A DNA stretch of 64,000 nt. Origin: Symbiodinium sp. CCMP2592 (taxonomy: Eukaryota > Sar > Dinophyceae > Suessiales > Symbiodiniaceae). Every line of letters starts with the position of its first letter. Position 1 is the first letter of the stretch. The position numbers and the translations under genes are program-made. The DNA lies in NCBI GenBank assembly GCA_905221615.1, contig CAJNDT010004902.1, forward strand, positions 496,001 to 560,000. The letters are read 5' to 3'. The notes beneath the pieces were generated by a model. The model made no database searches. It saw nothing but the letters and a program-made list of their open reading frames with translations, and had not been told where the DNA came from. Positions 16,521 through 61,560 of the stretch are shown piece after piece.

Positions 16521-16687
16521 CAGAGATTCCGTTAGAATCAGTTTTAGCCGTGCTTATTGAAGCAATCAAGACAAAGGAAACCCCAACTCACAAGGGCACC
16601 TTTTTATCTTGAGCCAAATATTGTAGTTAGCATGCACATCTGTACAAGTGCATGCCATCCTACCGTGTGTCCCTGGTGATTTCTGCT
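16521..16687 (-). repeat. 3' LTR of element 1
   Basis: 167 bases, identical by eye to 24,042-24,208. On the coding strand it begins AGCAGAAATC and ends AATCTCTG, so it lacks the usual TG...CA ends. It carries the 11-base spliced-leader-like match on the minus strand at 16,608-16,618. Confidence 0.93.
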
Positions 16688-16695
16688 CCCCCCTT
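16688..16695 (-). promoter_or_regulatory. Polypurine tract of element 1
   Basis: On the coding strand AAGGGGGG lies immediately upstream of the 3' LTR. The same eight bases precede the 3' LTR of element 2. Polypurine tracts prime plus-strand DNA synthesis, and this one fixes the LTR start at AG. Confidence 0.85.
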
Positions 16696-17050
16696 AGGCG
16701 AGTCACCATCGGTTAAGAGCCTACTTTACAGATCACCAGTTTGCAAAGTGTAGCTGTATTGCTACGGCTACAAGGTGGCGATGGATTTGCATGCTCCCGT
16801 GTATTTCGGGGCGCCTTGGGAGTCTGTACAAAAGCATCGCTGTTCGACAGCCCTACAGTCACAATGAAAGTTTACAAGGGACCTAAGACCTACATAAATT
16901 CACCCAGGAATCGGGCTCTTCTGATTCCAGCAACGCGAACATCGGAGCACATCATCCCAATGGTCAAAGTGCTCACGAAGCTCCAGCGGTGCTTCTGTGC
17001 TTGGGTGCTGACATGCAACCACTTAGGGAAAAATCACCTATCCTGGCGCG

Positions 17051-20000
17051 TCACCGCTGCACAGGTTGGGCGGCTGGGTTGATGCCAAGCATTCGCAGAG
17101 CTGGCAACCATTTAGGCCCTGGAAGGCTTTTGGTGAACACATCTGCTGCTTGAGCATCGGTCCTGACATGCTCCAACACTGTGTCGGCCTCACGGAAAGC
17201 ATCATAAAGACCGTTTAGGTCGATTTTATGAGTTTTGCTCACGTGTCGTAGGCGCGGGGAGTAGCCATTACGGATGACCTGTATGGTCGCAGTATTGTCC
17301 TGCTTGCAACGCAATAAGACACTGCGCCCCAGAATTCGCGAGAGGAACTCTTGGTTTGGGAGACCCTCGTCAAACAGACCTGTAGCTAAGCTAATTGCTT
17401 CGGCTTCTGTCGTGCTTCTGCTTACAGCAGTCTGACGTTTCGAAAGCCAACTGATCGGAAACCAACTCCGTGGCCCTTGCACTGCCAACAGCCCCCCTGA
17501 TGTGCTATACCCGTGCTCTATTGAACCTCCATGATCCGCATCGGTGTAGAGGACCAGTTCAAGCTTATCGGTAGGATCCCCTATGTAGCTTCTCATCCGG
17601 TAGCTTTTACTAGAGGATATGTAGCACATTAGCCTGTACAATTTGCGGTCGTCGTTGGACGACCAGCGCGTTATGCGTCGGCTCAGTTCCGTAATTGGAC
17701 GGAGGAGGTCAGGGCGTGACAAGCGGGCAAGCCAAAGGCACTTCATGAGTACCTTGGCGGCGTGTTCTGATAGAGCTCCTTTTACTTGCCAACCCTGTTC
17801 AGGGAGCGCGGAGTTTGCAATGCGAGACTCAAGATCGGAGATATGATGACTTGTCTTGTCACTCATACTTCTCTTGAGGTTGATGGCTTCGGCAAGTCTT
17901 TTGCAGGACGTGGCGATCGTCCACGACCTTTTGCCGGTAGATCCAAAGGCATTCGCGTTGGTGGTGCAAAGGTGCAATCCGGCTTCGTGAATGAAACCTT
18001 GGAGCTCGTCAAGCTGCCAACCTGCACATGTTTCCGGCCATTCGAAGTGAACCCGACCATGATTCCGCAGAACGATCCTTGCAGCAAGAATGAAAACTCT
18101 CACCAACCTTCTGGACTCATCTTGCTTGCACGTGAGTCTGGTGCGGGACTTTGGACCAAGGCGCCAACTGTTCAGCCGATTCCAATGGCTCCAAGGTAAG
18201 CAAGGAAGTGAACCCCACAGGTCTACACCTTCACTCTCCGCGAGTTGCTGCAACAACTGGTTGACATTATTCGTGTCAAGCATGCTTGCATGCTCATGTG
18301 CAAGGCGGACGTACGAGAGTCCGAGAGACTCGCCAACAACACTCAAGTTGGAACTGGGCGTACGGCAGAATTCGTAGAACCTTCCATAACCTGACAACTT
18401 GTCTTGACTGATAGAACACCCCCCTGATTCCGAACTTGTATCCCGGCGCGTTACCGCTGCACGGGCTGCATTCAGCGGGGCAGCAGTTCCTGCGGCCGCC
18501 GTTGTAGCCTCCGGTTTCACGGATGCAGCAGGGACAGGGTCTTTGAGGAAGAACACGGTTTTACCAGTCCACATTGCAGTCATGGGTTTGGTCCCGTCTT
18601 CTGAATGCCAATCCTCGCTTATCACTTCTTGCTTCTCACCAGTTTCGTAGGTGAGGAACGTTTCTCTGTGAGGTAGGAGGTTTTCAGGCGGAACTGGGAT
18701 ACCTTTAACCTTTTTAGGCGTAAACAAGTGCTTCCTTTGCTGCACATGATACCTAGTCAGTGTCTCGCCCTCTAACACCCACGAGTCATGGTTGCGGTCC
18801 ACTCCATCTGGAAATTCATGCAGTTTCTCGGCCAACAAAGTAGCGAATCTATCCCGACATTCCTTAGAATGCTCAACTGGCAATCCTTCGCAAGCGTTGC
18901 ATTCAGGAGTGGGCCCGTGCTTAAGAACACGTGCTTCGGTGATTCGGAAATTACCTGTCAAGGCTTTACTCTCAGCTGGGTGTTCTGGGATGGTGAGGCT
19001 CATGACTCTCCCCTCGATGGTTTCATCTACGGGGTAGTCCTCAGGATCCAGGGTCATCTCTTGGAGGTTTAACCTGAGTTCACCCTTGTCTTTGAGTTCC
19101 GCTAGTGGATAGCGGACCTCATCCTGGTAGACAGTCATGGCCGTTTGAGGGGTTACCTCAACCTTTCCCAGCAACAGGTCTTTGACCTGCTCCAGCGAAA
19201 GAACTTTGTAGGCTTTCTTAAAACCACATCCCGGCTCAACCCTCCAACCAACAAAGATCCCGGCTACAGTCTTTAACTCAACCTTCTTAGTGACTTTGGC
19301 TTGGGGCCTAAAGTACACCAAGGAACCGAAAGGGAACTTGTTTCCAGAGAACGGTGCGCCATGCAATGCCTCCCAAGGTTCTCCAAGGGATAACGCGGTT
19401 GCTGCGTACTGGACGGCAAGTGGCCATAAGCTCTTAACTTGACCAGCCTGGCACAAAGCACATCGGGAAACGTCCTCTAAGGTCCGAATCCTTCTATTGA
19501 TGATTGAAGTGTGTCGGTATGGAATTGTCGTAGGGTGGACGAGCTTTAGCTCATCCGCTGCAGCCTCAAGCTCAAGCGAATTATCACTGTGAAGCTCAAC
19601 GGCATTGCGACGACCAATGAAGTGGCGCAAGGCTTTAGCGCTGTCGCCACTCGACTTTGAACGTGAAGGGTACGCCAGCATGAACCCCGTGTGGTCATCA
19701 ACAGCTACGAGAAAAACTCTCTCCCCATGCAAACCAAACAGGTTCCTGTCCATACGGCCTTTGGCGACGATTACATGGTCAACATGCAGGCGGTCACCAA
19801 ATGACTCACTTGCTTCACCGTCCGTCAAAGAATGTTCAATCGGAAGTGCACGTGCTGGCAACGCATCTTGCTTGGAGCGCATGCATGTTTTGCAAAACTT
19901 GTTCTTAGGAATGTGCGTTAGCTGGTGCTCAACACTCCTTGCAATCTCCTTTAGCCTTTCATCTTTTGTACGCGCATCGTCCTCTTCCACCTCTACTGCT

Positions 20001-22993: not shown

Positions 22994-23013
22994 TTTGACG
23001 ATAGCGCCACCAG

Positions 23014-23892
23014 TCACTCGAACAACCGATCAATCGGAACCTCGTGCAGCGGGCTGTCCCTCGTGATATGGTAGATCCAGGGCTTGCCGTTCCGATAGCA
23101 CTCGTCCTTAACTTGATCGTTGTCGTCCAGCAGTGTCGGAATGTTGAAGTGGTTGCAAATGTCAGCCTTACCACCACGACCCGTCTTTTCAGTGCAAACG
23201 ATTACGATGCTGAAAAGATTGGCCACTCCAGATGCCAGCAACTCCTGAATATACGTCGATGCGCCTCTTCGCCCAACGTAGGTGAGGAGCAATGAATAGC
23301 AGCCAGCGCGACAAGTATTGGCCAACCACTTCAAATTGCAAATAGGAATGACGCAGCCCTCTGTGCTATCCAAAGATGATCCAAGCTGCCTCCTTCGCAA
23401 CTCTCGGCTGGTATAGGCAATCGTTTTATAATAATCAATCGCGAAAGTCTTCTCTGGAAAAGTAAACTCCGGATCAATATGCTGCTCGCTGCAGATTACC
23501 ACGTCGCCCCGATTCGCACTTGGGAAGATAGTCTCCAATGGGTGCACAAAGTGCTCGACTTGCGGCAACTCGTGAAGACTACTCAACTCGGCAAAACGGA
23601 TAGGGCCCCTGGGTTCCTCCCTGGCAGGTTCAGCTGTTACTACCAGAGGGTCCTCCGGTGTTGGAACAGGTTCAGATGTCGCTACTCCAAACTGCAAATC
23701 CAAAGCCGCCGCGATGTCCTCGTCTACCTCCTCGTACGCACTCCGACTCTCCTCTTCGCCCTGCGCGTGAAAAGTAGGAAAGAAGACCGCCAAGCCCTGC
23801 GATACCGCCGCGAACAAAATACGGCCTTCCCGTCTGTCCTTGCGGCGCTTTGATTTGCCGGCGCGAGGTCTGTAGGTATCAGACCTTTTCAT
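23014..23892 (-). CDS. Element 1 ORF1, HAD-like protein
   Basis: The frame is open from 24,006, but the first ATG on the coding strand is at 23,892, giving 292 residues ending LHEVPIDRLFE. Its TGA overlaps a GTG of the next frame (GTGA), so the two ORFs are tightly packed. A basic start (KRSDTYRPRAGKSKRRKDRR) could be a nuclear signal. The C-terminal half has the motif order of the HAD fold: KTFAIDYYKT (motif I, with Tyr instead of the second Asp), YSLLLTYVG (motif II), TEKTGRGGKAD (motif III Lys) and NIPTLLDDND (motif IV). The related ORF upstream of Gag in element 2 keeps the same order. HAD membership is inference from motifs, and the missing second Asp suggests altered or no phosphatase activity. 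Confidence 0.6.
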   Translation of the reverse strand: MKRSDTYRPRAGKSKRRKDRREGRILFAAVSQGLAVFFPTFHAQGEEESRSAYEEVDEDIAAALDLQFGVATSEPVPTPEDPLVVTAEPAREEPRGPIRFAELSSLHELPQVEHFVHPLETIFPSANRGDVVICSEQHIDPEFTFPEKTFAIDYYKTIAYTSRELRRRQLGSSLDSTEGCVIPICNLKWLANTCRAGCYSLLLTYVGRRGASTYIQELLASGVANLFSIVIVCTEKTGRGGKADICNHFNIPTLLDDNDQVKDECYRNGKPWIYHITRDSPLHEVPIDRLFE

Positions 23893-24025
23893 ACACCAGC
23901 GGCCAACAAACACCAATGAAGATCCTAGAGCTCGGCGAAAAGTAGAGCACCAGAATATGGCTTCACGGGCGATGTGAAACTTCGAATATGTAAAGCCCCG
24001 AACCAAAGGAACAGGACGCGAGAGC

Positions 24026-24041
24026 TATACGGCTGATAACC
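24026..24041 (-). promoter_or_regulatory. Putative primer-binding site of element 1
   Basis: On the coding strand GGTTATCAGCC follows the 5' LTR directly. Element 2 has GGTTAACAGCC in the same position. A tRNA 3' end or tRNA fragment probably pairs here to prime minus-strand DNA; the tRNA was not identified. Confidence 0.55.
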
Positions 24042-24208
24042 CAGAGATTCCGTTAGAATCAGTTTTAGCCGTGCTTATTGAAGCAATCAAGACAAAGGAA
24101 ACCCCAACTCACAAGGGCACCTTTTTATCTTGAGCCAAATATTGTAGTTAGCATGCACATCTGTACAAGTGCATGCCATCCTACCGTGTGTCCCTGGTGA
24201 TTTCTGCT
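24042..24208 (-). repeat. 5' LTR of element 1
   Basis: Identical to the 3' LTR. It carries the minus-strand spliced-leader-like match at 24,129-24,139, followed on the coding strand by ATAAAAAGG. It is expected to hold the promoter. Confidence 0.93.
24129..24139 (-). promoter_or_regulatory. Spliced-leader-like 11-mer in LTR (element 1)
   Basis: TTTGGCTCAAG on the coding strand equals the last 11 bases of the dinoflagellate spliced leader. The twin site in the other LTR is 16,608-16,618. The same 11-mer, also followed by an A-rich TAAAA, is in element 2's LTRs, although the two LTR types are otherwise dissimilar. Confidence 0.7.
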
Positions 24209-29784: not shown

Positions 29785-30648
29785 ATGGACAAAGCTGTGG
29801 ATACCTCTTATCGCATCCTCGACCTCCCGTTCGGGGCAGGCGAGCCTGAGATCCAGAAGGCTTTCAAGTCCAAGGCATTGCAACACCATCCGGACAAGGG
29901 TGGTTCAGCCTCAGCGTTTCAGCGGATTCAAGATGCCAGGAATGTTCTCCTCTGCGACCTCAATGGCCCATCAATCCCATCAAACGCATGCTGTAGCAAG
30001 GAGGAGCGGCAAGAAGTTAGCAAGGCCAGAGCTGCAACACGTGCAGCTCAGCGGGAAGGATTTGAGACGGCTCCGGCTGCAGGCAACAAGCCTGGAACAC
30101 ACAAGTTCAGGAGCAAGGAAAAGCTTCGATCAGAACGCGTCGCGCAGCAAGCGTTCTTGGTGCAAAAAGCTGAGAAGGCAAAGCAGGCAAACAAGCAATG
30201 CAAGGGCAGTAAGCTTAGGTCGAGCCAAGACCACAAACAAGCCAGCGCCCCGCCCTCGAAAAGCGATAACAGCCCGACTCTTCATGTCAATGAACCTGTT
30301 GACCAGAGCCTCGTCCCTTCAAGAGTCATTTCTGTTGCATGGGCGCCACAGGGGGATCTTATTAATTTCATGGGTCTTTTTCGATATGGCAATTATCCTC
30401 AAAGGCACCCCTCAAATCACGTCATAAGCCTTCTACACCTGGATGTTTCCAAGGGTACCCCCTTTTGTTGGGGCTCCGCGTGGGTGGGGTGCTGGGGGCA
30501 GAGCCCGAGCATGTTGCCCAGATGGACAGATCCCCTGAATGAGCCGTTAGCCCAGGGCTTCCCTGAGAATACCACTTGGGCGTCCAACACCTGGCTTGGA
30601 TGGTTCCTTTGCTGTGCCTTTGCAGGCCGTCATGAAGGGTGGCAATGA
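29785..30648 (+). CDS. J-domain (DnaJ/Hsp40-type) co-chaperone-like protein
   Basis: A 287-codon frame from ATG at 29,785. The J domain is at residues 6-60: YRILDLPFGAGEPEIQKAF, the diagnostic HPD in QHHPDKGG, and AFQRIQDARNVLL. J domains stimulate the ATPase of Hsp70 partners through HPD. After it comes a basic, Lys/Gln/Ala-rich region (about residues 75-165), then a C-terminus with many Trp and Gly. That tail may run into intron sequence. There is no signal peptide, Cys-rich zinc-binding region or clear membrane segment, so this is a type III J protein, probably cytosolic or nuclear. The start is supported by the domain beginning six residues in. It is the best single-exon host gene in the window. 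Confidence 0.82.
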   Translation: MDKAVDTSYRILDLPFGAGEPEIQKAFKSKALQHHPDKGGSASAFQRIQDARNVLLCDLNGPSIPSNACCSKEERQEVSKARAATRAAQREGFETAPAAGNKPGTHKFRSKEKLRSERVAQQAFLVQKAEKAKQANKQCKGSKLRSSQDHKQASAPPSKSDNSPTLHVNEPVDQSLVPSRVISVAWAPQGDLINFMGLFRYGNYPQRHPSNHVISLLHLDVSKGTPFCWGSAWVGCWGQSPSMLPRWTDPLNEPLAQGFPENTTWASNTWLGWFLCCAFAGRHEGWQ

Positions 30649-47642: not shown

Positions 47643-47647
47643 TATTA
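47643..47647. other. Target-site duplication TATTA (left)
   Basis: TATTA precedes the 5' LTR and follows the 3' LTR at 57,986-57,990. Confidence 0.9.
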
Positions 47648-47826
47648 AGTTAATCATACTCGAGCCCCAGGCCCTTGCATGATGTAGCTAAGAACGTACT
47701 ACAAGAGGTAGATGAAGAGCAGCTTGAAAGACGCACACGAACGTGATTTGGCTCAAGTAAAAGAAGTGCTTTGAGTGCTTGCTTTTGCTTGTCTTGTAAC
47801 ACGACGGGTTTACTTCGTGTTCAACT
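47648..47826 (+). repeat. 5' LTR of element 2
   Basis: 179 bases, AGTTAATC at the start and TTCAACT at the end. AGTT/AACT form a 4-base inverted pair. Identical by eye to 57,807-57,985. It contains TTTGGCTCAAG at 47,747-47,757. Confidence 0.94.
47747..47757 (+). promoter_or_regulatory. Spliced-leader-like 11-mer in LTR (element 2)
   Basis: TTTGGCTCAAG equals the last 11 bases of the dinoflagellate spliced leader and is followed by TAAAAG. The twin site is at 57,906-57,916. Confidence 0.7.
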
Positions 47827-47840
47827 GGTTAACAGCCTCA
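47827..47840 (+). promoter_or_regulatory. Putative primer-binding site of element 2
   Basis: GGTTAACAGCC directly follows the 5' LTR. Element 1 has GGTTATCAGCC at the same place. Confidence 0.55.
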
Positions 47841-48716
47841 GCATTTCATATCATTCACTGTGGTCGTCTAGGGAGAGTCTAGGACCCCTGCGAGCCATAG
47901 TGCCCCGCGTGCAGGCCAAGTGTCTGTGCATTCCATATCTGCAAGCAACTAGCGAGGTTGCGTGAAATCGGTTTGCCGTAGGTCTAGTGAGAGACCTGCC
48001 CATCCTCCATACCACTTTCCATATCCTGCACTGTCATTCTCCTGGGGTTAGAGCCAGAACCCTACAGTTGAGATCCCAACCAGCGCCTGCATCGCAGCCT
48101 GGTTTTACACATTATCTGTGAGGTCCAAATCTGCTGCGTGCCTCGCCTGCTTGCTCAGGCATCCGCGTGGTAACCTTCTTCGGGTTCTCTAAAGCCCCGC
48201 CTTAGCACCTCTCCCGTAGTCCCGTTCACGGACAAAGGAGGCCAGGCCTTGTGGTGCGACAGGCGATCCAGTAGAGCTCAGAACAGAACCGCAACGAGTC
48301 AGGAGTGAGATTGCATCCCAGCAACCCTCCTGTAAGAGTTCAGCTGAGATTGGAGGTTGATTGAGATTTCTGGTTTGGGTTAGCGTGGGTGTTTCCCGTG
48401 CTCGGCCTTCGAACCGCTTCCTCAGTCCCTCATCCCAGCTGGAGACTGCCTCGGCAGCACAGCACAACGATCCAAAAGAAACAACAAATCGCATCGGCTC
48501 TCAGTGTGCCAGCCAGGGGGTTCTGTGTCGTTCTTCCTGGGTTGACATTGAATATCGGGTGATCGAGAGGGTTACCCAGCTGAGCCTTCAGGGATTGACA
48601 TTGGGACATTGGATAATCTAGAGGATTGTCTAAGCAGAGCCTTCAGAGGAATAGCGAACTTCAATCTACCTGTGTTCGTTATCTGAAGGCATCCCGATTG
48701 TTTTCTTCTCTGCTGT
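47841..48716 (+). other. Leader of element 2
   Basis: Untranslated region between primer site and ORF1. It contains an imperfect tandem repeat of about 55 bases at 48,541-48,655: GACATTG, then GAGAGGGTTACC or GAGGATTGTCT, then AGCCTTCAG in both copies. No gene was seen. Confidence 0.6.
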
Positions 48717-50096
48717 ATGAGTGGCCGCGGGGCTACTACGCCAGAGGAGAGATTCGCTCTCAACGCTGCGCTCCTGTTGGCAGCTGAGAAACGCGGAGGA
48801 TCCGGCTCATCTGGGAGGGCCCGGAGGAGTTTGCACTTGAAGATTGTGGGTGGCTTTGCTTCTGAGCTGCGTGGACTCGCGGCACTTGATCAGGCAGACC
48901 GCCAGAACTTGGAGACGGCCAACGCCTATATTAATTGGCTAGAGCAGGGTAATACCCCTGATCGGTTTGATCCTTTGCCCACTTTCCTTCCGTCTTCTGG
49001 TCCGACACTGTTTCCGCGGTCTTTTGCGCCGGCACCTACTGCCCCCGAGACCCCTCCTCCTGCTGATCTTGTCCCTGAGACCCCTCCGCCTTCTGGTCTT
49101 GAGTCTCCTGGTGTATCTTCTGCTGCTCCTAGTGGGCCTTTGGTTACGCCTCGCGAGCCGCCGTTTCCACCTCCAGCACGCCGTGCCTTGGGTGGTGATT
49201 CGGATTCGGTAAGGGGTGTAACTTCCGGTAGAGGGACTCTTCCGGGCGGTAGGTTACGACCTCCCACGCCCCCTAAACCCAGAGGCATTTCACCAACTTC
49301 GGCGCCTGGACTAGCTCCGTTTGTCCCTATCGGGACTCGAGTGACGGTTACATCTGCTAACCCTCTTCTTCGACAGCCTAAGCGGGCCCGATTTGAGGAG
49401 GCTGCCGCGGAGGTTCTTGATCCCGTCGAGGAGGCGGTAGCGGAGGTTCTTGATCCCGTCGAGGAGGCGGTAGCGGAGGTTCTTGATCCCGTCGAGGAGG
49501 CGGTAGAGGAGGTCCCACGGCCATTGGTCAGGCGTAGTGTTCGTTTCAGCGAGTCTTTATCAATCAGACAAATCGCGAACTGGATACAGCTTGAACGGGC
49601 CACACGTGTGGTATCGCTTGACTGTCACTTGGTGTTAGATCGCGACTACGCCGCGAGTGCCACAGCTGTGCAACGCATCTTAAGCACGTATTCCGACATC
49701 AGCTTGGTGGTCTGCTCTTTCGCTGTAACATCTTCCACCAAGGCCAAAGTGAGGGACAGCGTGCGTCGCGTTGTCGAGGGGCTGGACCCATCTTCTTTCG
49801 TTGGCGCTCCGGAGCGGGTGATTTCTTTATTGATTACATCTGCGAAGGTTGGCAACAACGGTAAGGGCGATCGGCTGTCCGCTTTGGCACGGAGTGGTGG
49901 GTTGCGATTCATCACGTGGACGACCAGGATCCCATCTGTCGCGATATTTCGCGTTACCCGGGCTGTACCGGTTATTGTTGGGAGCCGTCGGACAGGCGCA
50001 GCCTCGACCACGTGCTGTGGTACGACCTTCACATCTAAAACGGGACCGGGGCAGACTGCAAATTCCGTGGGTTCTAGTGTTGAGGGTCAACTTTGA
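48717..50096 (+). CDS. Element 2 ORF1, HAD-like protein (frameshifted near its end)
   Basis: A 459-codon frame from ATG at 48,717. The N-terminus (about residues 1-80) is basic and helical. Next comes a long Pro/Ser-rich linker, then three copies of the 11-residue unit EVLDPVEEAVA (49,410-49,510). The C-terminal domain has VVSLDCHLVLDR (motif I), DISLVVCSF (motif II) and ITSAKVGNNGKGD (motif III Lys), in the HAD order seen in element 1's ORF1. Motif IV (HHVDDQD) is found in another frame at about 49,908-49,930, so one base has been gained or lost near 49,910 and the last 60 residues of this frame are out of phase. HAD assignment is inference. Confidence 0.6.
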   Translation: MSGRGATTPEERFALNAALLLAAEKRGGSGSSGRARRSLHLKIVGGFASELRGLAALDQADRQNLETANAYINWLEQGNTPDRFDPLPTFLPSSGPTLFPRSFAPAPTAPETPPPADLVPETPPPSGLESPGVSSAAPSGPLVTPREPPFPPPARRALGGDSDSVRGVTSGRGTLPGGRLRPPTPPKPRGISPTSAPGLAPFVPIGTRVTVTSANPLLRQPKRARFEEAAAEVLDPVEEAVAEVLDPVEEAVAEVLDPVEEAVEEVPRPLVRRSVRFSESLSIRQIANWIQLERATRVVSLDCHLVLDRDYAASATAVQRILSTYSDISLVVCSFAVTSSTKAKVRDSVRRVVEGLDPSSFVGAPERVISLLITSAKVGNNGKGDRLSALARSGGLRFITWTTRIPSVAIFRVTRAVPVIVGSRRTGAASTTCCGTTFTSKTGPGQTANSVGSSVEGQL

Positions 50097-50154
50097 AGGT
50101 TGGGGTGAAGTATTTTTACAACCCTTAGACCTCGGTTGAACCGCTGTTCCCATA

Positions 50155-53100
50155 ATGCCTCTAGCATCACAACTGGGATTCGAGGAATCCTCACTGGAAA
50201 TTTCATCGTCGAGCACACCCCCTAGGGCCCAAGCACTTAGCGTGCGCCCAGAGGCAGCTAGACAGTCGGATTCATCAAGTTCGGGACCGATTCGGAGGAA
50301 CCGGGCTAGATCATTGTCGTATGGACCCGCATCGAGGTCTTCATCCCTGCAACCGGCACCAACCTTTGCAGCGAATGTTGGCCCTGCCCGTAGTCAGAAC
50401 CCAACCGGCCCGAACACGAGCCATCAGGAGTTGCACTTGCATCAACATGCCCATCGGCAGCAGGTCCTTCAGGTTGGGGTTGACCCGGTAACCCATGCGA
50501 ACATGCAATCCGAAGCAACATCAGCCATCATGAACGCCAGAGCTGAGACAGCAGCCGTGTTTGGCGAAGCCGAAGCAGTGATTCAGTCTCTAAGATCAGA
50601 GAACCAACAGCTAGGTGCCCAGACCGCTGCGATTCAGGGTGAGTCGTATGCCGCCATACAGGCGCTAAGGTCCGAAAACCAGCAGTTGGGTTCACGCGCT
50701 TCGGTAATTCAGGGTGAAGCTGAAACGGTGATTGGAAACCTCCGAACTGAGAATCAACAGTTGGGGGAGATGAACCGTGAGCTCAACCAGAGGCTCGAAA
50801 AGCAAGCTAAGATGATCCTTGAGCAGCAAGAGTTATCTAAGGCTATGCATCAGCAGCTAATCGCGCTTCAGTCGCATGTGCAAGCTGCCGAACCAAAGAA
50901 CCCAAGCATCCCTTCATCGGCTATCCCCGCGAGCTCTACCCAAAATGGCGCGGATCAGGCTGCGTCTGCATTCAACGCATTGCAGGCACTCGCGGGTGAA
51001 GTTGGGGGAACAATGCGAAGGATTGAACAAGCAATTGAGGTAGCCCTTAGTCCCAAAGCCAAAGCAAAGAAGCAGAAAGCTAAAGCCGAGGCTACGGTTA
51101 GGGCCATTGCACCATCAGTTGCGCTGCCGATCCCAGCTAAGGCTTCCGGTTCTAGCGGTTTCGTTGCTCCTAGTCCGGTTGAGTTTGGGGTACCACCGTA
51201 TCAATGCAGTCGTAAGAACATCTTCACGGGTAGATTGCATTCCGCAACACCCGCACATCCTCCTCCTCCTCCACCACACTCTGCACCGCAGAAGCTCAAG
51301 CCTCAAGTCTTCGACATAGCAGATGAAGATGACTTTGATGAGCATGGTGAAGATGAGGATGATGAGGGCGGAGAAGATTTCGAGGATGATCCAATCGTCC
51401 CGGTTGCGGCTCACGAGCCCGAGGATGACAGAGATTACGAGTCTAGCATTTACAAGTACAAAGACCTGAAAGACATCAAGCTTCCCCAAATTCCGGGTTC
51501 CAGCGTTGAGTTCAGGGCTTACCGCAATTCGGTGTTAACACAGATCGCGTCAATAGATTGCAGCGGCAAAGCCGTCCTGTTGAAGTGGCTTCAAAAGAGC
51601 TTAGATCCATCAGGTAGCATTGCATTGACACGGTCGCTTCAGCGGGATTGTGAGGGTTTGCCTAGACTTGATGGGTGGATTTCCGCGTGCATCAGTGATG
51701 CGAAACACCTAAAAGGTGAATGGGGATTGCAAGCGCAGTCGTACTTGGAAAGGTGTCATGCGTCTGGAACGATGCCATCGGGTCGTGCCCTCCTGTCCAT
51801 TCTTAGCAGAAGATACCGGATAGATAAAGTGCGCGGGCCATTGGTGACACTACAATCCTTGTTCGATTTAGAACCTGACTCATTCTCCTACCAATCGCTT
51901 GTAGCCTTCAAACAACGCGTCGAGTACGTGTTGAATGGCTTACCGGAGCGGCAATGGCCAGACGCCGAAACAATGTTTTCATGGATCTACTCACGGCTAA
52001 AGGGGTGCAGGATGCTGTCACGCACCATTGATCGGGTCAAAGATGCCAAGCCGGGTTCCAAGCGTAGGACATTTGAGTACATTTGGAATGGGTTAGAAGA
52101 GGTTCTTGCAGAAGTGCGCGAGGATCGAAATGAGCAAGCGCTAAAGGATTCGCTCAAAGAGGATTCCAAACAAAAGCAGAAACCAGATGCCAACGCGAAA
52201 GCGGCTGCGGCTAAGGCTACGCCCGCCGCTCCTGCTGCAAAGGCAAATGCAAAGTCTAAGGCCAAAGGCCAAGGCAATGATAAGCCCCCGAAGGCCCCGA
52301 GCAAAGCAACTCCAGGAGTCCCCGACGCCAATCTTGGTGCCGGTGAGGGTGCTGATAAGGGCAAAGGCAAAGGTAAAGGGAAGGGCGGGGGTAAGGATAG
52401 CAAGGCTAAACCTCAGAAACCTCCAGCTGCAAAGGATTCGTCAGCAGGACAATCCGGCCAAAGGCCAGCGTGCTTCTTCTATCCGAAAGGAACATGCACT
52501 AGGGGAAAGGATTGCCCTTTCGAGCATGTAGATGCACCAAAGAAAGCTGCTCCATCAAAGGCCGCCCCAAAGGTGCCTGCCGGAGTCGCCATGTTAGCAG
52601 CCGCGTCGACGGGCGCGAGCGCATGCAACATCCCTTCATCATTTGTCCGCGGTTTCAAAGCCACATGTCGCTTGATCACCGCTCCCTTTCGTGTGTTTGC
52701 CCGCTTTGCGGCAGCACTTTCATTTGCATTGCCCGCAACCGTGCATCATTCGCATGATCGCATTGCCGCGACAGTCAGTAGACCTAACTGTTCAGGGGGG
52801 TCGTACTTCCTTGATTGGGTTGCTGATTCTGGGGCAGGGAGAAGCCTGCTAAGCCAATCCGCGCTTGCAGATCAGGGCATTTTGACTGATATGTTCAGCG
52901 ATCACATCCGGTCAACCAAGCCGTTGCAGTTTGAAACCGGGAATGGTGTGACGAGCAGTGGCACCTTCCTTACTACAACGAGCGATGCCTTTGGATCAGT
53001 AGAATCCTATGTTCTACAAAGCTGCCCGGTAGTGCGGTCTTTAGGCCAACTAGTAGAGTTGCAGCGAAAACCTTTTGTTTGGCTTCCCGGTAGCATGCCG

Positions 53101-53886
53101 TTCTTCGGTACAAGCGAAGATTGCGTTCAGATCACTTGGGATTCGGATCGTGTCATCTATGCCCATAAGGTCGATGATTATGTTCCGGTATTTCGTGAGC
53201 AGATAAGGTTTGGTGGTGACGGTTTGCATCGAGCCTTAGCCGCTGGTGAGTCTGCCCCGGCAGCCCCAGCAGAGGTTCCTGCACCCGCTGTCCCAGCAGA
53301 GGACCCTCCTCTACCACCTCCCGTAGCACCCCCTCCAGCTGATCCAGGGGAAGGTTCCGGTGCCGACGATGAGGGTGATGAGGATGCACCAACCAAGGCT
53401 CAGCGGCTAATCACTGAAGCCCAGAGTCTAGAACATCGCTTAACGCATATGCCAAAGAACCCATACTGTGATGTTTGCAGTCGGAGCCGAATGCTAAAGA
53501 AGCGAACGGCAAGGACGCGCTATGCAAGGTGTGATGATGAGTTAGATCCGGTTGACGAGTTCGGCCAACGGATAGCGGCTGACTTCATCATAGTGCACAA
53601 AGACTCTAGAAGCACTGAAACCGTCGTTCTGACTGTGAGAGATGAAGCCACAGGGTACATAAGAACATTCCCGTTAGTGTCTAGGCACGAAGACGGGGTG
53701 GTACGATCCTTATTATCCTTCCTCGGTAGGCGCGCTTCTGGACCTTGTGTATTGTTTAAAAGCGACAATGCACGGGAGCTCCTCGCAGCATGTGCGACGT
53801 TGGGGTTTACTTCAGAGCCAAGCCTTGAGCGGAGATGGCCTCACAATTCAGTCCTTGAACGGGAAATCCGGACAATTGAGGAGTGA
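50155..53886 (+). CDS. Element 2 Gag, protease and integrase (to internal TGA)
   Basis: A 1,243-codon frame from ATG at 50,155. A Ser-rich start is followed by a coiled coil with three near-repeats ending in LRSENQQLG/LRTENQQLG (residues about 140-205). Then an acidic patch, the Gag core (about 430-650), a Lys/Ala linker and a CCCH finger CFFYPKGTCTRGKDCPFEH near 773. Aspartic protease box ADSGAG is near 890. The integrase HHCC finger (HRLTHMPKNPYCDVC) is near 1093, and core residues are Asp in AADFI (about 1142), Asp in KSDN (about 1203) and Glu in VLERE (about 1235). The TGA at 53,884 falls inside the integrase; the same frame stays open to 54,738. This integrase keeps the catalytic triad that element 1 lost. 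Confidence 0.88.
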   Translation: MPLASQLGFEESSLEISSSSTPPRAQALSVRPEAARQSDSSSSGPIRRNRARSLSYGPASRSSSLQPAPTFAANVGPARSQNPTGPNTSHQELHLHQHAHRQQVLQVGVDPVTHANMQSEATSAIMNARAETAAVFGEAEAVIQSLRSENQQLGAQTAAIQGESYAAIQALRSENQQLGSRASVIQGEAETVIGNLRTENQQLGEMNRELNQRLEKQAKMILEQQELSKAMHQQLIALQSHVQAAEPKNPSIPSSAIPASSTQNGADQAASAFNALQALAGEVGGTMRRIEQAIEVALSPKAKAKKQKAKAEATVRAIAPSVALPIPAKASGSSGFVAPSPVEFGVPPYQCSRKNIFTGRLHSATPAHPPPPPPHSAPQKLKPQVFDIADEDDFDEHGEDEDDEGGEDFEDDPIVPVAAHEPEDDRDYESSIYKYKDLKDIKLPQIPGSSVEFRAYRNSVLTQIASIDCSGKAVLLKWLQKSLDPSGSIALTRSLQRDCEGLPRLDGWISACISDAKHLKGEWGLQAQSYLERCHASGTMPSGRALLSILSRRYRIDKVRGPLVTLQSLFDLEPDSFSYQSLVAFKQRVEYVLNGLPERQWPDAETMFSWIYSRLKGCRMLSRTIDRVKDAKPGSKRRTFEYIWNGLEEVLAEVREDRNEQALKDSLKEDSKQKQKPDANAKAAAAKATPAAPAAKANAKSKAKGQGNDKPPKAPSKATPGVPDANLGAGEGADKGKGKGKGKGGGKDSKAKPQKPPAAKDSSAGQSGQRPACFFYPKGTCTRGKDCPFEHVDAPKKAAPSKAAPKVPAGVAMLAAASTGASACNIPSSFVRGFKATCRLITAPFRVFARFAAALSFALPATVHHSHDRIAATVSRPNCSGGSYFLDWVADSGAGRSLLSQSALADQGILTDMFSDHIRSTKPLQFETGNGVTSSGTFLTTTSDAFGSVESYVLQSCPVVRSLGQLVELQRKPFVWLPGSMPFFGTSEDCVQITWDSDRVIYAHKVDDYVPVFREQIRFGGDGLHRALAAGESAPAAPAEVPAPAVPAEDPPLPPPVAPPPADPGEGSGADDEGDEDAPTKAQRLITEAQSLEHRLTHMPKNPYCDVCSRSRMLKKRTARTRYARCDDELDPVDEFGQRIAADFIIVHKDSRSTETVVLTVRDEATGYIRTFPLVSRHEDGVVRSLLSFLGRRASGPCVLFKSDNARELLAACATLGFTSEPSLERRWPHNSVLEREIRTIEE

Positions 53887-54738
53887 TCGAGGGCTCTTCA
53901 CATTGCGGCAGGTTTTCAGTTGCATTCGGGTCTTTGGGTCCATACTGTCCGCTATGCGGCACACACCATTAATCTCTTCCACCCTGCGGTTGGGATTGAG
54001 GGTAGCCGGTATGTAAACGCGGTTGGATCCGAGTTTGGTGGCATGAAATTACAACTTGGTCAGCTGGTCTACTACAGACTTGACCCGGCATATCGTGAGA
54101 AGTTTCAGGCATCAGCAGCGCCAGGGGTGTTTGCAGGTTGGCGGTTCGATAGTGGTCCATCATCTTTCAGAGAAGTCTATCACGTGTTGGACTATGGTAA
54201 GCTAAAGAACCGTGAACCGGGGTACGAAAAGGCGATCTCCGTCCCTAGAGAGGAGATACATGTTCCCCGCGGTAATCCCATCCTTCCGATGTTCACCGCT
54301 GCAGAAGCTGCTTTGTCTAGTTTCACGAAAGCCGAGTATGAAGCCATCGAATTCCTTGATGTGCCGTTCAGCACGGTGGCACCATCAACACCTGTGGCAA
54401 AGCGCCACGAGTACATCACTTTAGATAGGCTCATGCGACTAGGCGCAACACCTGGTTGTAAGGCCTGCAAGTTCGATGGAACAGTACACACACCAGTATG
54501 TAAGGCAAGATTCGATGGTTTGATTAAAGCCGAGAAGATTGCTGCGAGCAAGTCAGTCAGAGACGCGGCACCGCCCGATGTCGAGCGCCCTGATCCTTCG
54601 GCGGAGTCTCACCCGCAGCCCCCGAGGGTGATGAGGATGCCCCAGAGCGCGCGAGCTCCTCTGCTGGCCCACGAGCTCCAGCTGGTGTTGTGGTTCAGTC
54701 TTCTGAAAACAAGGTTTCAACAGGTGAGTTTGGTTTGA
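53887..54738 (+). pseudogene. Element 2 integrase C-terminus after the TGA
   Basis: Same frame as the preceding ORF. It reads SRALHIAAGFQLHSGLWVHT then LGQLVYYRLDPAYREKF and GVFAGWRFDSG. The latter matches element 1's SLVYFRPQAKVTKK and GIFVGWRVEPG, the usual small C-terminal domain of copia integrases. A CKACKF...CKARF cluster lies at about 54,458-54,510. The frame leaves the true reading near 54,590-54,610, where the next frame takes over with SPAAPEGDEDAPERASSS. The single TGA could be a nonsense mutation or an edited/read-through codon; neither can be told from DNA. Confidence 0.75.
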
Positions 54739-57728
54739 GTGCAAGGTTTCTCGCAAACGAGAGAGCGCGCAACAACACCAGAAGGGTTAAGGAACTTCCA
54801 GGGGAAAATGTTCTGATCGAGTATGGTTGTGAAGACGAGTCTGAGATAAGTAACGCGTGTGAGCGTTGTAAGGTTCATTGTGTTAGTCTTTCCCAGTCAA
54901 CGCTGGATTTGACTTCGCAGGATGACATGCAACAAGTCGTTTCCCAAGCAATCCCAGGTGTAGATGCTTGGTTCACCATACCTTGCACGCATATGTCTTC
55001 GCATCAAGCCGTACATCGTGAATCCCAAAGCCCTAAGTACGCGCGCAAGATTGCACAAAGGCAAGCCACATCTAAGCGAATGTTGGTTTTGGCCCTTAAT
55101 GTTGCCGATCATGTCATTGAGCAGGGGGGTCGAGTTTCGTTCCAGTGGAGTTCGGATTCAGGGGTGTTTAGGCAGCCTGAGTGGATCGACTTCGCATCGA
55201 AACACGAGCTTTCCAATGTAGCCTGTGTTAGTGGCAACAAGGCCATCACCATCGCTTCAAACTCTAGGCGAGTACTGGAGCACTTCGCAAAGGTGTCAAC
55301 AAAGGAGTCGTCAGAGATTAATGCAACCAGCATCGAGGCATATGAGTTTGCAGATCTCGTGATACAATCCTTGTTTCCCCAGCGGTACTTCAAAAGTGTC
55401 CCCAATCTTGGTAAAGCGAGCGCGCTTATTACCAAGAATCTCTCCCGCCGAGAATGGCAAGCTGAGCCGAAGGCGCTCGAGGCCATCGCTCAAGAAGCAG
55501 AGGGATTGCGCCGAAATGGCACATGGGATGACACAACAGCCATGCCACTGCATGAGCTGAGAAGTCAGGCCAGGTCTCAGGGACGCAAGCTTCGCGTCGC
55601 AGAACTGATGACCTTGTGCGGGGTAAAGCATGCCGAACTTGCACCTGAATTTCAAAAGTTCAAAGGGAGAATTGTTTATAGAGGGGATAGGGTTTTGGAT
55701 GAGTTTAACAATCTGGTTTTCTTCGAAGAGACCAGTACGACTCCAACGGGGTTAATAGCCTTGAACGCCTCCCTCTTCTGGGGTTGCTTACCGGAGCACT
55801 CTGTGTCATGCTCTGACGCAATCCAAGCATACCTCCAATCTGAGCTTAAAGAAGAGACATACGTAATCCTGCCAAGGGAGTTGTGGCTCCCTGGTTGGGA
55901 GGAGCGTTTTGGAGCGCAAGCGCGAATAGTCGTTCGACTTCGCAAGAGCTTGTACGGCCATCCACAGGCCGGACGGCTCTGGCAAGAGTATTTGTCTAGG
56001 ATTTTGATCTCATTAGGCGGAAAGGAGTCCCAGGAGTTTCCAAGCAACTGGTTCTTTGAGTACAAGGATGGGGTTCTCATCTTAAACATTTACGTCGATG
56101 ACTTGAGTTTGTGCGGATTAACAAAATTGCACACGCCATTTTGGCAAGCGTTGAGGGCGAAGGTCAAACTTGATCCCGAGTGTTTCATAGGTTCTGAGGG
56201 TGTTCGGATCTTAGGTAGACTGCATTGTCGGTACGATGAACCATCGTCGACCACAATGGCTTTTAGGATGCCTGAGTATGCTGAGCAGATTGTCCAAACC
56301 TATTGCGAGATCACCGGGACAACGCCCGACAAGCTTCGTCGAGTGAACACGCCCTGCATCGCTGAATCGTCAATGACCGACGAGGATATCTCAGCGCAAG
56401 GCGAGCTCCACGATTCAGCATCACGCATCTTGATGCGCTGTTTGTGGTTAGCTCGTCTCTGTAGAGCTGACATCGCATTTGCTGTAACTCGCTTAGCTTC
56501 CAGGATCACTCGTTGGACCGCCTGGGAGGACAGACAAGTGCTCAGACTTGTGTCGTACATTCATCACACTAGAGATGTTTGCATGAATGCCAGTTGCTCT
56601 TGGGATGCTGCTCCCGAGCTACGGGTGTATACAGACGCTGACTTCGCAGCCTGTCCCTACACTTCACGTAGCACGTCCGGGATTGTAGTCCACATAGGCA
56701 CAGGTCAGCATGCATTCCCTGTGATGTGGCAAAGTCGCAAGCAAACGTCTGTTGCGAGGTCGACGCCAGAGGCCGAAATGATCTCAATGGCATCAGCCAT
56801 GTTTTCAGAGGTCATAAATTTGCAGACGTTCTTACAGTCAGCCTTCAAAAGCACAGTGCCGATCATCTTCTTCCAAGACAATGAAACTGTCTTGGCCATC
56901 CTGAAGTCAGGATACAGTCCTAAGCTTCGCCACTTAGGGCGCGTGCACCGCGTGAACGTGGCAAGTATGGCAGAGATCTTTGAGCAAGAAGAGTTTTCGG
57001 CTACTTACGTGAACAGCAAGGAGCAATTAGCTAATGGTTTGACTAAGATCATCCCTCCTGCTGAGTGGTCTGATATGCTCACACAGTTGTGCCTTCACGA
57101 AGGTGTCCCTCACAGTGCGACCGTCTCAAAGGTCGTAGCTGAGGAAGCAGAGCGTTTTGCAAGCTCACTGCCTAGAAAGATCACACAAGAAGACCTTGTG
57201 CAGCTTTTGTCGTACTTGCCAGGGGAGAGCGCCGTGCGCCCCTCTGCAAGTGAGGCAATGTGCTTCACCACCGGTGCGTTCGCGCACGGAGGTGGGATCG
57301 CAGGTTTAAGGCAAAATGTAACCCTCTTCCCAGTAGTCACTGCGGTTTTGTGCAGGTTCATCCGTAGGGTGTTGCCTAAGCATAAGTTTACGGCAGTGAT
57401 GTTGGCCAAGAATCAAATTACTTTGACTCATAAGGATTCTTACAACGAGCCATGCAGCAAGAACGCTGTAATCCCACTTGAAGTGTTCGAGGGGGGCCAC
57501 GTGTGGGTGCAGTCACAAGACGGTGGCTACCCATGCCCAGACCTCAGTCGAGGTGAGAAGGGCGAGATCCTTAAATGGCCAGCGATCTTCGATCCAAGAC
57601 GGTTACATGCGACGACCCCTTGCACGAAGGGTGACAGAATCGTCATAATTGCCTTCACACCTAGAAACGTGAGCAGGCTGCCCGTCGACAGCCAGCTGAA
57701 GCTGCGAGAGCTTGGATTCCACTTCTAA
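54600..57728 (+). CDS. Element 2 methyltransferase-like segment, RT, RNase H and oxygenase-like domain
   Basis: An open frame to TAA at 57,726. Residues are counted from 54,690. A segment at about 90-195 has DAWFTIPCTHMSSHQ and GRVSFQWSSDS, echoing cytosine-methyltransferase motifs. The RT follows with LIALNASLFWGC, SCSDAIQAYLQSELKEETYV, LRKSLYGHPQAGRLW and the active site YVDD at 468-471. RNase H has YTDADF (about 647), TPEAEM and QDNET, then LANGLTK. After RNase H come about 155 extra residues: THKD with metal-binding His914 and Asp916, IPLEVFEGGHVWV, FDPRRLHAT with His973, and KGDR with Arg983. This is the HxD...H...R layout of 2OG-Fe(II) oxygenases. No such tail exists in element 1. Oxygenase function is inference. 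Confidence 0.85.
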   Translation, partial: GGVSPAAPEGDEDAPERASSSAGPRAPAGVVVQSSENKVSTGEFGLSARFLANERARNNTRRVKELPGENVLIEYGCEDESEISNACERCKVHCVSLSQSTLDLTSQDDMQQVVSQAIPGVDAWFTIPCTHMSSHQAVHRESQSPKYARKIAQRQATSKRMLVLALNVADHVIEQGGRVSFQWSSDSGVFRQPEWIDFASKHELSNVACVSGNKAITIASNSRRVLEHFAKVSTKESSEINATSIEAYEFADLVIQSLFPQRYFKSVPNLGKASALITKNLSRREWQAEPKALEAIAQEAEGLRRNGTWDDTTAMPLHELRSQARSQGRKLRVAELMTLCGVKHAELAPEFQKFKGRIVYRGDRVLDEFNNLVFFEETSTTPTGLIALNASLFWGCLPEHSVSCSDAIQAYLQSELKEETYVILPRELWLPGWEERFGAQARIVVRLRKSLYGHPQAGRLWQEYLSRILISLGGKESQEFPSNWFFEYKDGVLILNIYVDDLSLCGLTKLHTPFWQALRAKVKLDPECFIGSEGVRILGRLHCRYDEPSSTTMAFRMPEYAEQIVQTYCEITGTTPDKLRRVNTPCIAESSMTDEDISAQGELHDSASRILMRCLWLARLCRADIAFAVTRLASRITRWTAWEDRQVLRLVSYIHHTRDVCMNASCSWDAAPELRVYTDADFAACPYTSRSTSGIVVHIGTGQHAFPVMWQSRKQTSVARSTPEAEMISMASAMFSEVINLQTFLQSAFKSTVPIIFFQDNETVLAILKSGYSPKLRHLGRVHRVNVASMAEIFEQEEFSATYVNSKEQLANGLTKIIPPAEWSDMLTQLCLHEGVPHSATVSKVVAEEAERFASSLPRKITQEDLVQLLSYLPGESAVRPSASEAMCFTTGAFAHGGGIAGLRQNVTLFPVVTAVLCRFIRRVLPKHKFTAVMLAKNQITLTHKDSYNEPCSKNAVIPLEVFEGGHVWVQSQDGGYPCPDLSRGEKGEILKWPAIFDPRRLHATTPCTKGDRIVIIAFTPRNVSRLPVDSQLKLRELGFHF

Positions 57729-57798
57729 TCGGAGTGGCTATTCCACCAAGTAGGTAGTCTGCGTAACTAAGTTCAGTGTAGCGTTTCACGCTGTCTTC

Positions 57799-57806
57799 AA
57801 GGGGGG
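57799..57806 (+). promoter_or_regulatory. Polypurine tract of element 2
   Basis: AAGGGGGG lies immediately before the 3' LTR, identical to the tract of element 1. Confidence 0.88.
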
Positions 57807-57985
57807 AGTTAATCATACTCGAGCCCCAGGCCCTTGCATGATGTAGCTAAGAACGTACTACAAGAGGTAGATGAAGAGCAGCTTGAAAGACGCACACGAA
57901 CGTGATTTGGCTCAAGTAAAAGAAGTGCTTTGAGTGCTTGCTTTTGCTTGTCTTGTAACACGACGGGTTTACTTCGTGTTCAACT
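57807..57985 (+). repeat. 3' LTR of element 2
   Basis: Identical by eye to 47,648-47,826. The spliced-leader-like 11-mer is at 57,906-57,916. Confidence 0.94.
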
Positions 57986-57990
57986 TATTA
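57986..57990. other. Target-site duplication TATTA (right)
   Basis: Matches 47,643-47,647. The insertion site is AT-rich. Confidence 0.9.
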
Positions 57991-59431: not shown

Positions 59432-59979
59432 GCTGCTTGGCATGTTTCGATCAGAGAATGTCGAACCCCCCCCCCCCCGCTCCCCAGCATGGTTGCCACT
59501 CCCTTAGCTGTGCAAGCATGAATGGGTGCCCGAAACCTATCCTGAAATTCTGGTTTAGGGTGTGCGCATGCTCACAAAACCTTTCTTTTTAAAAACCCGG
59601 AACCTGAATGGAGGTGTCTGCAGCTTCTAGAACGCGTCAGGTTTAGGCGGCTATGGGTTGCCAGGCAGCCAGCCAGCCAGGCAGACACACACACACACAC
59701 ACACACTTGCACACAAACACAAACGCAAACGCAAAACAAAAACAACCACACTCACAAAAAGAGATCTACATAAGAATGTACGTGAATGATGCAGGACCTC
59801 AGCCCCCGCCCCAACCCCATCGTAGTCCACTGAGGGTTCTGGGTCTCGGTCTTCTGAGGGCTCTAGGGGTGTGACCGTGCCTACTGCGCGTGGCCGTAGC
59901 TGTGTGCAGGCTGCTCCCGGCCCCAGGCTCGACAGCTTAAGCACCTTGCTGCCACTGAGTTGCCGCGCTCAAGACAGCA
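59432..59979. other. Ubiquitin intron sequence and spacer
   Basis: Starts GCTGCTTGGCATGTTTC. This and the phrase GGGTGCCCGAAACC...TCCTGAAATTCTGG near 59,525-59,555 recur after the second ubiquitin fragment at 63,856-63,975. A C-homopolymer run (about 59,467) and a (CA)n run (59,685-59,706) are present. No gene. Confidence 0.55.
59685..59706. repeat. (CA)n microsatellite
   Basis: An 11-unit CA run followed by AAACACAAACG variants. Confidence 0.88.
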
Positions 59980-60815
59980 CTGACTTGGATGATCGCTCTT
60001 GGCGTTGTGATGTCTGCAAGCTGTGGAAGCCCCCTTTAAGGATCTTCTTCCCAAGTCGCGGTGGTATCACATCAGCTCTCGGCATCCTGATGAGCCTCGC
60101 TCGAGTTTTGAGCACCTACGGCCTAAAGGACTTCAGGTGTCCCCTGCCCAGGGAAATCGTCCTGGCCAATGGACGTGTGTTTTTTGCCTCCACGGCCTCC
60201 CTCCTTTGCCAGGCCGAACGTGGAGAGGACCCGCGCGGCGACACCTACGTGAATGACGACCTGGAGCCACTCTCCGTGACTCTATTGTTGCTCTGTGCAA
60301 GCACAACGACGATGCCACTGCTGGCCCTGCATCTCGGTGTGCTGCTGCCGTTGTTGTCCGTGACTCCTTTGCCAAGGATGACATGGTCAAACAGGCTGCT
60401 AGCTTGGGTCATCGTGTTGCTCGTGTTGTGCCGGCCACAGGCACGAAGCGTGCTTCAGATGGCACACGTAAGAAGCTCGCCTGCCGCTTCCAGTGGACCT
60501 GTCGGTCCTGCACCAGACTCTGGAATGCCTCCAACCTTCGGCACGCGATCACCAAGCAAATTCGGTGTCCCGATGATCGCCGCACTTTTCTGCGCACGAA
60601 GCCTCGTGCCCGTCTGTGCATGGGGTGCCCTGAGTCACGTTGACCGCAAGGCGTTTGGCACGCTTTGGCCCGCAGAGCGCTCTGGTCTCAACCGGCGAAT
60701 CTCCCAACTTCGCGGTCAAAGTGCCAAGGTGTTCCGGAAAGCTCGGCGAAGGCAGGGTTCTTGGCAAAAGGATCTTGTGGAAGATCGTGGTGTTGAGCCC
60801 AACCCTGGCCCATCA
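59980..60815 (+). pseudogene. LINE-B zinc-finger region and 2A-like motif
   Basis: Pieces in different frames: SWRCDVCKLW (59,996), WTCVFCLHGLPPLP with RRHLRE (60,170-60,256, other frame) and QWTCRSCTRLWNASNLRHAI (60,490-60,550). Each matches a LINE-A finger. At 60,783-60,812 the frame reads DRGVEPNPGP, which contains the core ExNPGP of 2A-type ribosome-skipping peptides. It sits exactly between the finger region and the endonuclease, a sensible place to split the protein. Confidence 0.55.
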
Positions 60816-61560
60816 TCATCACCTGCATCGTCTACCCTGCGCCTTGCTACGTGTAATGTTGGAGGTGCCTCCTCTGCCTTTTGCTGCTCTGGCTTCTCTG
60901 TGCGACGCCCACCTGGACGTGCTGGGGCTCCAGGAGACGAGGGTGTCCCCGAGGCAATCCGTTGCATGGCAGAAGGAGGCTCATCGTTCAGGGATGTTCA
61001 GGGTTTGGGGCTTGGGTTCATCCTGGTTACCAGGTTCGTGATTCGGTTGGCCGGCTCTACTACCAGCACGGTCTGGCAGTTGCTATCAAGAACACCCTTC
61101 CTGCTGCCGAGCTCTTTCGCCACGACGCAGCTGAAGGACAGTGCCTCGCCATGCTGGGCGACAGCCTTGCTTCCTCTGGCAGAAGCTTGACCTGGTTGAT
61201 GAGGGTGGCCTCACTCCTGCCCTCACTGGCCTCCTAGAGACCTACCCTAAGCTGGTTTTCGCCGGGGACTGGAACGAGCTTCGCCAGTCCAACGCCTTCG
61301 CAACAACTCCCTCGTGCCGTTTGCGGTCAGGTGCCTTCGCTTCCACTAGATTCACTAGATGGAATGGGCAGTGGGCCATTGACTACTTGGTTGGCCCACG
61401 CATGCTTCAAGCTCAAACTTGGTTTGCCGACGCCTCTTTCGGTGATCATGATCACAAGGCTCTGCTCTTTCAGACCGCGTGGCCCATGCCTGTTGCTGCG
61501 GACTTGACTTACTTACATGGTCCCTACGAGAGCTTACAGCTGCCCTACTGGTGTCTCTGA
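60816..61560 (+). pseudogene. LINE-B APE-type endonuclease fragments
   Basis: LATCNVGG (Asn motif, about 60,842), DVLGLQETRVS (Glu motif, about 60,920, another frame), VFAGDWNELRQ (Asp-Trp-Asn, about 61,258) and SFGDHDHKALLF (in place of SDH, about 61,437). The order and spacing follow the LINE-A domain. Three frames are needed to read them. Confidence 0.6.

Follow-up and report, generated by a model that had tools for sequence, protein, structure and literature searches.

A predicted TET/JBP-like oxygenase domain at the end of a Copia polyprotein in the dinoflagellate Symbiodinium

Introduction

Base-modifying genes are already known in retroelements, both as cytosine DNA methyltransferase (DNMT) domains (PMC5890265) and as AlkB domains (PMC9289625). 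Here, we describe a Copia-type long terminal repeat (LTR) retrotransposon whose polyprotein bears an oxygenase-like tail at its C-terminus. The element occupies positions 47,643-57,990 of a 64,000-nucleotide stretch of DNA, the window, from Symbiodinium sp. CCMP2592 (contig CAJNDT010004902.1, positions 496,001 to 560,000, assembly GCA_905221615.1), and the genome scanned is the 1.1 Gb assembly that contains it.

The closest described systems are fungal DNA transposons (Kyakuja, Zisupton, IS3EU, hAT and others), which resemble this element as mobile elements encoding a TET/JBP-like oxygenase (PMC12730594). The fungal carriers are DNA transposons and some Helitrons, whereas the domain described here lies inside retrotransposon polyproteins; the 2025 fungal study found no TET/JBP in retrotransposons, and suggests that the TET-bearing transposons act against methylation-linked hypermutation and silencing (PMC12730594). 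Orchid Ty3/Gypsy elements with an AlkB (2-ODD) domain are a second parallel, in that a 2-oxoglutarate (2OG) oxygenase has been added to an LTR retrotransposon. However, the orchid AlkB is an additional open reading frame (ORF), acts as an N6-methyladenosine (m6A) RNA demethylase in vitro and was gained recently in Phalaenopsis (PMC9289625). Among dinoflagellate retroelements, SymbioLINE-Dnmt and SymbioDIRS-Dnmt3 likewise carry cytosine-methyltransferase domains; the main text of that study contains no word beginning 'TET' or 'dioxygenase' and states that Symbiodinium Copia elements are without a DNMT domain (PMC5890265). A later paper places DNMT3 in Copia as well as DIRS elements, in streptophytes and dinoflagellates (PMC12344493). 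In the open-licence PMC literature, no earlier description of a retrotransposon with a TET/JBP-like domain was found. The host setting is unusual: 5-hydroxymethyluracil (5hmU) is reported to replace 12-70% of thymine in dinoflagellates (PMC6723414, PMC11071213), one of which shows a sign of repeat enrichment in one species (PMC11071213).

Fold and active site of the polyprotein tail

The element is placed in Copia by its LTRs, its TATTA target site duplication, an RVT_2 match and the order protease-integrase-reverse transcriptase (RT)-RNase H, the order being read from motifs. Its full domain order is ORF1, gag with a CCCH finger, protease, integrase, methyltransferase-like domain, RT, RNase H and tail (Table 1). 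An ORF of 1012 amino acids (54690-57728) continues past RNase H into an HxD...H...R tail, as an earlier note made from the letters of the window had claimed. The tail motifs are HKD (residues 914-916), EGGHVW (934-939), LHATTP (972-977) and KGDR (980-983). The residue numbers that the note assigned to HKD, to His973 in LHAT and to Arg983 in KGDR are exact; the tail frame, which it began at 57230, begins at 57231. A structure model of the tail (m4afc74dcb623; predicted local distance difference test score 92.7, predicted template modelling score 0.89) forms a double-stranded beta-helix (DSBH). This model and the fold searches agree with the 2OG-Fe(II) oxygenase fold put forward earlier.

The window tail was aligned with 29 others from the same genome, which are 24-42% identical to it except for one at 93%. 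H914, D916 and R983 do not vary in this alignment, and the conservation of N919 and H973 is 90% or higher. Twenty-one positions reach at least that level, H914, D916, H973 and R983 among them. The chance that four random positions of 210 would all fall among the best-conserved 21 is 8e-5, or 6e-6 with N919, which joined the test after the alignment had been viewed. The HxD...H...R pattern is therefore more than a chance resemblance. Conservation was further counted in 62 domain rows of the same genome, many of them near-copies (33 are left below 90% identity); the count omits L001-L008, which partially overlap other loci, and three partial domain matches of 65. The iron triad and the 2OG arginine (H914, D916, H973 and R983) are all retained in 57 of the 62 rows. 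The asparagine at +5 from the first iron histidine is present in 61/62, and all five residues in 56/62. An iron or 2OG residue is changed in L051, L032, L042, L017 and L071 (in the last, only R to K), and the asparagine is the sole altered active-site residue of L058.

The ratio of nonsynonymous to synonymous substitution rates (dN/dS) is 0.04-0.19 in the 9 of 13 pairs with finite dS; the other four, including L039/L060, which is also misframed, were set aside because synonymous changes are saturated. Between the window and L012, the oxygenase (0.098) and the RT (0.080) are under similar constraint. The tail domain is thus under purifying selection. Model and conservation support the tail as a DSBH 2OG-Fe(II) oxygenase with an intact-looking active site, which would be catalytic.

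Relationship to known oxygenase families

Among the Pfam families listed for the 30 aligned tails at E <= 10, Tet_JBP alone recurs (10/30); one relative reaches an E-value of 3.1e-6. The curated cut-off of this family (PF12851, 34.9 bits) is not reached by the window tail (12.3 bits) or by the best of the 148 genome places listed (29.6 bits). Because every match stays below it, we name the domain TET/JBP-like and not a family member. The top Foldseek match of the tail model is CcTet, and AlkB folds rank close in VIA. CcTet, NgTET1 and TET2 (7w5p, 4lt5/5cg9 and 4nm6) share the fold; the retrotransposon tail is shorter, and its identity to the TET structures in structural alignments is 9-16%. 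HxDxxN, which reads HRDLHN in TET2, and LHATTP are common to the tail and TET2. We take the asparagine at +5 to be base-contacting in TET2. CcTet carries Gly331 at this position (PMC12730594). Judged from alignment and model, TET/JBP is the closest family to the tail. The JBP/TET kinship proposed earlier holds to this extent, and not as a match above the Pfam cut-off.

A sequence search of the PDB with 12- and 30-member profiles returned only the histidine kinase 3v9f (E 0.034 and 0.063), which was rejected as chance-looking. PHROGs gave weak, scattered matches to the tails, the best at 0.0037 ('DNA endonuclease V', 2/30). A tblastn search of phages with one relative as query found nothing, and when viral contigs were scanned for the tail pattern, the three matches included no relative. 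A host TET/JBP gene was not found among the 148 genome places listed for PF12851, none above the cut-off; short host exons could conceal one, and the scan is therefore uninformative on the host enzyme.

One Copia clade carries the tail

The first look gave about 5,000 oxygenase-domain candidates; 150 per search were scored, and all 150 matched. To pair RT with tail, 137 of 142 RT rows were compared with the 150 listed tail rows; the 5 omitted rows are second pieces of copies already counted. The same comparison with 104 tail rows gave identical counts. A listed tail lies within 3.2 kb of 69 of the 82 RT places that are at least 48% identical to the window. This is a lower bound, since only 150 of 4,949 candidates were scored and the remaining 13 places may have a tail as well. 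Below 48% identity, none of the 55 RT places has a listed tail. Copia relatives whose RT is 37-45% identical to that of the window end after RNase H, and the 2.7 kb fetched for each show no trace of the tail (10 of 10). In the RNase H tree, seven tail-bearing sequences form one clade apart from the ten tailless ones (support 97/100), with L071 on a very long branch; in the oxygenase-domain tree, the eight Copia tail rows form one clade (support 97/91). The simplest reading of these trees is that the tail was acquired, apparently once, in one Copia clade and has since been inherited vertically over a long time. In this genome one clade carries the tail, and the neighbouring Copia clades lack it.

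The tail is fused in frame to the Copia polyprotein. In other genomic copies, it terminates a frame that is open over about 2,500 amino acids, which suffices to span gag to tail, and 18 of the 150 listed places (counted by hand) have a tail that is complete or nearly so within a stop-free Copia frame of at least 2,400 amino acids. The window copy is young judging by its LTR identity, yet broken: the integrase frame ends at 53886 and a frame shift precedes 54690, while the frame stays open from the methyltransferase-like domain to the end of the tail. The full 21-nucleotide dinoflagellate spliced leader occurs 429 times in the genome, compared with 0 for the reversed control. This identifies the host as a dinoflagellate, the setting that the note had assumed. 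Artefact or contamination was rejected, since the oxygenase domain recurs on many contigs of the genome that holds these spliced leaders.

Methyltransferase-like neighbours and related retroelements

A C5-methyltransferase fold was found in the window polyprotein between integrase and RT, in a region without a Pfam match to DNA_methylase. The window and L012 have the motif-IV PC, which the other five of the seven tailed sequences lack; by eye, two of four tailless relatives (L085 and L087) have it too. The domain is constrained (dN/dS 0.119), although the motif-IV cysteine is not conserved. Whether it is an active methyltransferase is uncertain.

Related oxygenase domains occur in other retroelements of the genome. 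L071 is another Copia, with a 3,174-aa frame in which the oxygenase lies between integrase and RT (RVT_2 8.4e-16, Tet_JBP 4.3e-4). L069 and L070 combine the oxygenase with a DNMT-like domain (VEVFSGT, APPCGTASRA, ENPANSHFW), and an ORF upstream in L069 is tyrosine recombinase-like by eye and matches no Pfam family. L025 with its continuation L073 encodes a DNMT-like domain, the oxygenase and then RT; L030 and L074 are copies from a single family and jointly encode a methyltransferase-like domain, the oxygenase and then RT. The order in L039 with its continuation L072 is RT, oxygenase, DNMT-like domain. A profile made from the DNMT-like domains of L069, L070 and L025 matches L072 at 4.4e-10 and L030 at 1.8e-4. 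Pfam assigns no methyltransferase to the DNMT-like domains of these loci, and the DNMT-like piece of L025 has no PDB sequence match at E <= 1. In L091, the oxygenase ORF adjoins an upstream 878-aa RT ORF (368-3001, minus strand; RVT_1 1.8e-6); this element is Penelope-like in appearance. The labels DIRS-like, given to L069, and Penelope-like are presumed from motifs. In L047 (1854-4025), the oxygenase ORF directly follows a ubiquitin carboxyl-terminal hydrolase ORF (UCH 3.2e-12).

As far as sequence can tell, the oxygenase family spans the tailed Copia clade, a second Copia lineage, DIRS-like elements and loci with another RT alongside, and stands beside a DNMT-like domain in three domain orders. 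The oxygenase-like tail described in the earlier note is confirmed; the methyltransferase fold, the spread over several retroelement classes and the absence from neighbouring Copia clades were not part of it. The SymbioLINE-Dnmt and SymbioDIRS-Dnmt3 elements probably coincide in part with the DNMT-bearing loci of this genome, and the oxygenase may supply a partner domain to the published DNMT-bearing dinoflagellate retrotransposons.

Proposed role of the oxygenase

On balance, we favour the tail as a catalytically competent TET/JBP-like oxygenase of the Copia Gag-Pol that would oxidise a 5-methylpyrimidine in DNA. The enzyme would be made as the last domain of Gag-Pol and would be packaged, or travel, with integrase and RT. 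It would then oxidise the 5-methyl group of a pyrimidine, either 5-methylcytosine (5mC) or thymine, which is 5-methyluracil, in the element's own DNA or at the site of insertion. The oxidation could alter or remove a host silencing mark, or lend new cDNA a host-like base make-up, and the element would benefit. A 5-methylpyrimidine is favoured because C5-methyltransferase folds accompany the domain and because it has the TET2-type asparagine. We regard 5mC as the leading candidate target, with a little less than an even chance; thymine is a doubtful candidate, another DNA or RNA base is somewhat more doubtful, and a protein target or none is less likely again. DNA-base modification by the element is plausible from sequence and model.

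Li et al. (PNAS, 2024) reportedly described the host 5hmU enzyme, and by its title 5hmU is said to silence transposable elements. We take that enzyme to be a TET/JBP homologue; it comes from the same host group as the retroelement domains and probably belongs to the same superfamily. Because 5hmU reportedly silences elements, a 5hmU writer would be costly to its carrier unless it oxidised the base further or mimicked host DNA, and the retroelement enzyme might equally act on 5mC or undo a mark. A link of the retrotransposon oxygenase to 5hmU is hypothetical. A wider scheme is tentative: several dinoflagellate retrotransposon classes might carry a C5-pyrimidine pair, a methyltransferase (some active, others perhaps binding modules) and a TET/JBP-like oxidiser, which would help to write or erase 5hmU and 5-hydroxymethylcytosine, and the host 5hmU enzyme may share their origin. 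These domains make testable a role of the elements in writing or erasing modified bases, and the interplay of base oxidation with host silencing.

The tail could instead be an RNA-base oxygenase or demethylase acting on the element's own RNA (for example on m6A), like the AlkB of the orchid Gypsy elements. We consider this unlikely, since AlkB Pfam families are listed at E <= 10 for 0/30 tails and Tet_JBP for 10/30, a tally from which HMMER filters may have dropped weak matches, and since the nearly universal +5 asparagine agrees with TET2 and the neighbours are DNMT-like in three orders. A role as a protein hydroxylase, of the prolyl hydroxylase or PiuC-like kind and with a host or element protein as substrate, is quite improbable: no prolyl-hydroxylase Pfam family is listed for the 30 tails at E <= 10, and HxDxxN and LHATTP are of the TET type. 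We give as little credence to a structural relic, in which the fold is kept for packaging, dimerisation or nucleic-acid binding and catalysis is lost. The ligands lost in some tails would fit such a relic, as would the methyltransferase-like neighbour, which is constrained with PC in only 2/7 tailed sequences; however, mere binding would not require that all iron and 2OG residues be retained in 57/62 rows. That the tail is a captured host fragment without a selected function is very improbable given dN/dS of 0.04-0.19 and a single tailed Copia clade maintained over deep divergence, with a listed tail at 69 or more of 82 related RT places, even though retrocopies are described as abundant in dinoflagellate genomes (PMC12014239).

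Organization of the element and other features of the window

Table 1. Features of the tailed Copia element, in window coordinates.
Feature	Position	Strand	Remarks
Target site duplication, left copy	47643..47647	.	TATTA; identical five bases at 57986-57990
5' LTR	47648..47826	+	179 bp, AGTT...AACT ends, TTTGGCTCAAG at 47747; 179/179 identical to 3' LTR
ORF1	48717..50096	+	459 aa; no Pfam match at E <= 0.01
Gag, protease, integrase start	50155..53886	+	Premature stop in window copy
CCCH zinc finger	52471-52527	+	Pfam matches below their cut-offs
Protease motif DSGAG	52825-52839	+	Motif only
Integrase HHCC-like	53434-53478; 53572-53772	+	Motif only
Remaining integrase region	53920..54738	+	Other frame in window copy; uninterrupted in L010
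Cytosine-5 methyltransferase-like domain	54780..55409	+	Between integrase and RT; motif-IV-like PCT in 54978-55007
Reverse transcriptase	55590..56400	+	RVT_2 E 1.6e-10; YVDD 56088-56105
RNase H motifs DAD...STPEAE...DN	56628..56897	+	Motifs; aligns with RNase H ends of tailless Copia
TET/JBP-like 2OG-Fe(II) oxygenase domain (predicted), C-terminal tail	57126..57725	+	Structure model, fold searches, tail alignment
HxDxxN	57429..57446	+	H914 57429-57431, D916 57435-57437, N919 57444-57446; motif also in TET2
H973, predicted third iron ligand	57606..57608	+	Within LHATTP
R983, predicted 2OG-binding arginine	57636..57638	+	Conservation across domain rows
3' LTR	57807..57985	+	179/179 identical to 5' LTR; TTTGGCTCAAG at 57906
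Target site duplication, right copy	57986..57990	.	TATTA

ORF1, which lies ahead of gag, contains an internal direct repeat with 33-bp spacing. The window holds a second, tailless Copia-like element on the minus strand (16521-24208), whose LTRs (16521-16687 and 24042-24208) are identical over 167 bp. Its 1,992-aa frame has no oxygenase tail, and its RT seems to be missing, since the methyltransferase-like domain runs directly into RNase H.

The LTRs of both elements contain the 11-mer TTTGGCTCAAG (at 16608 and 24129 in the second element), which is the 3' end of the dinoflagellate spliced leader (sequence in PMC12014239). It is also found in 33 fetched Copia loci (some overlapping), tailed or tailless, which include 9 of 10 tailless loci; the expectation in the scanned bases is 0.16 at equal base frequencies, though the copies are related. 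The LTR 11-mer may be left over from trans-splicing or may mimic it.

Downstream of the tailed element, an ORF at 59871-61190 contains the 2A-like string VEPNPGP, after which LATCNVGG resembles the start of an endonuclease; Pfam gives no match at E <= 0.01. The ORF at 29785-30648 encodes a DnaJ domain (1.5e-9).
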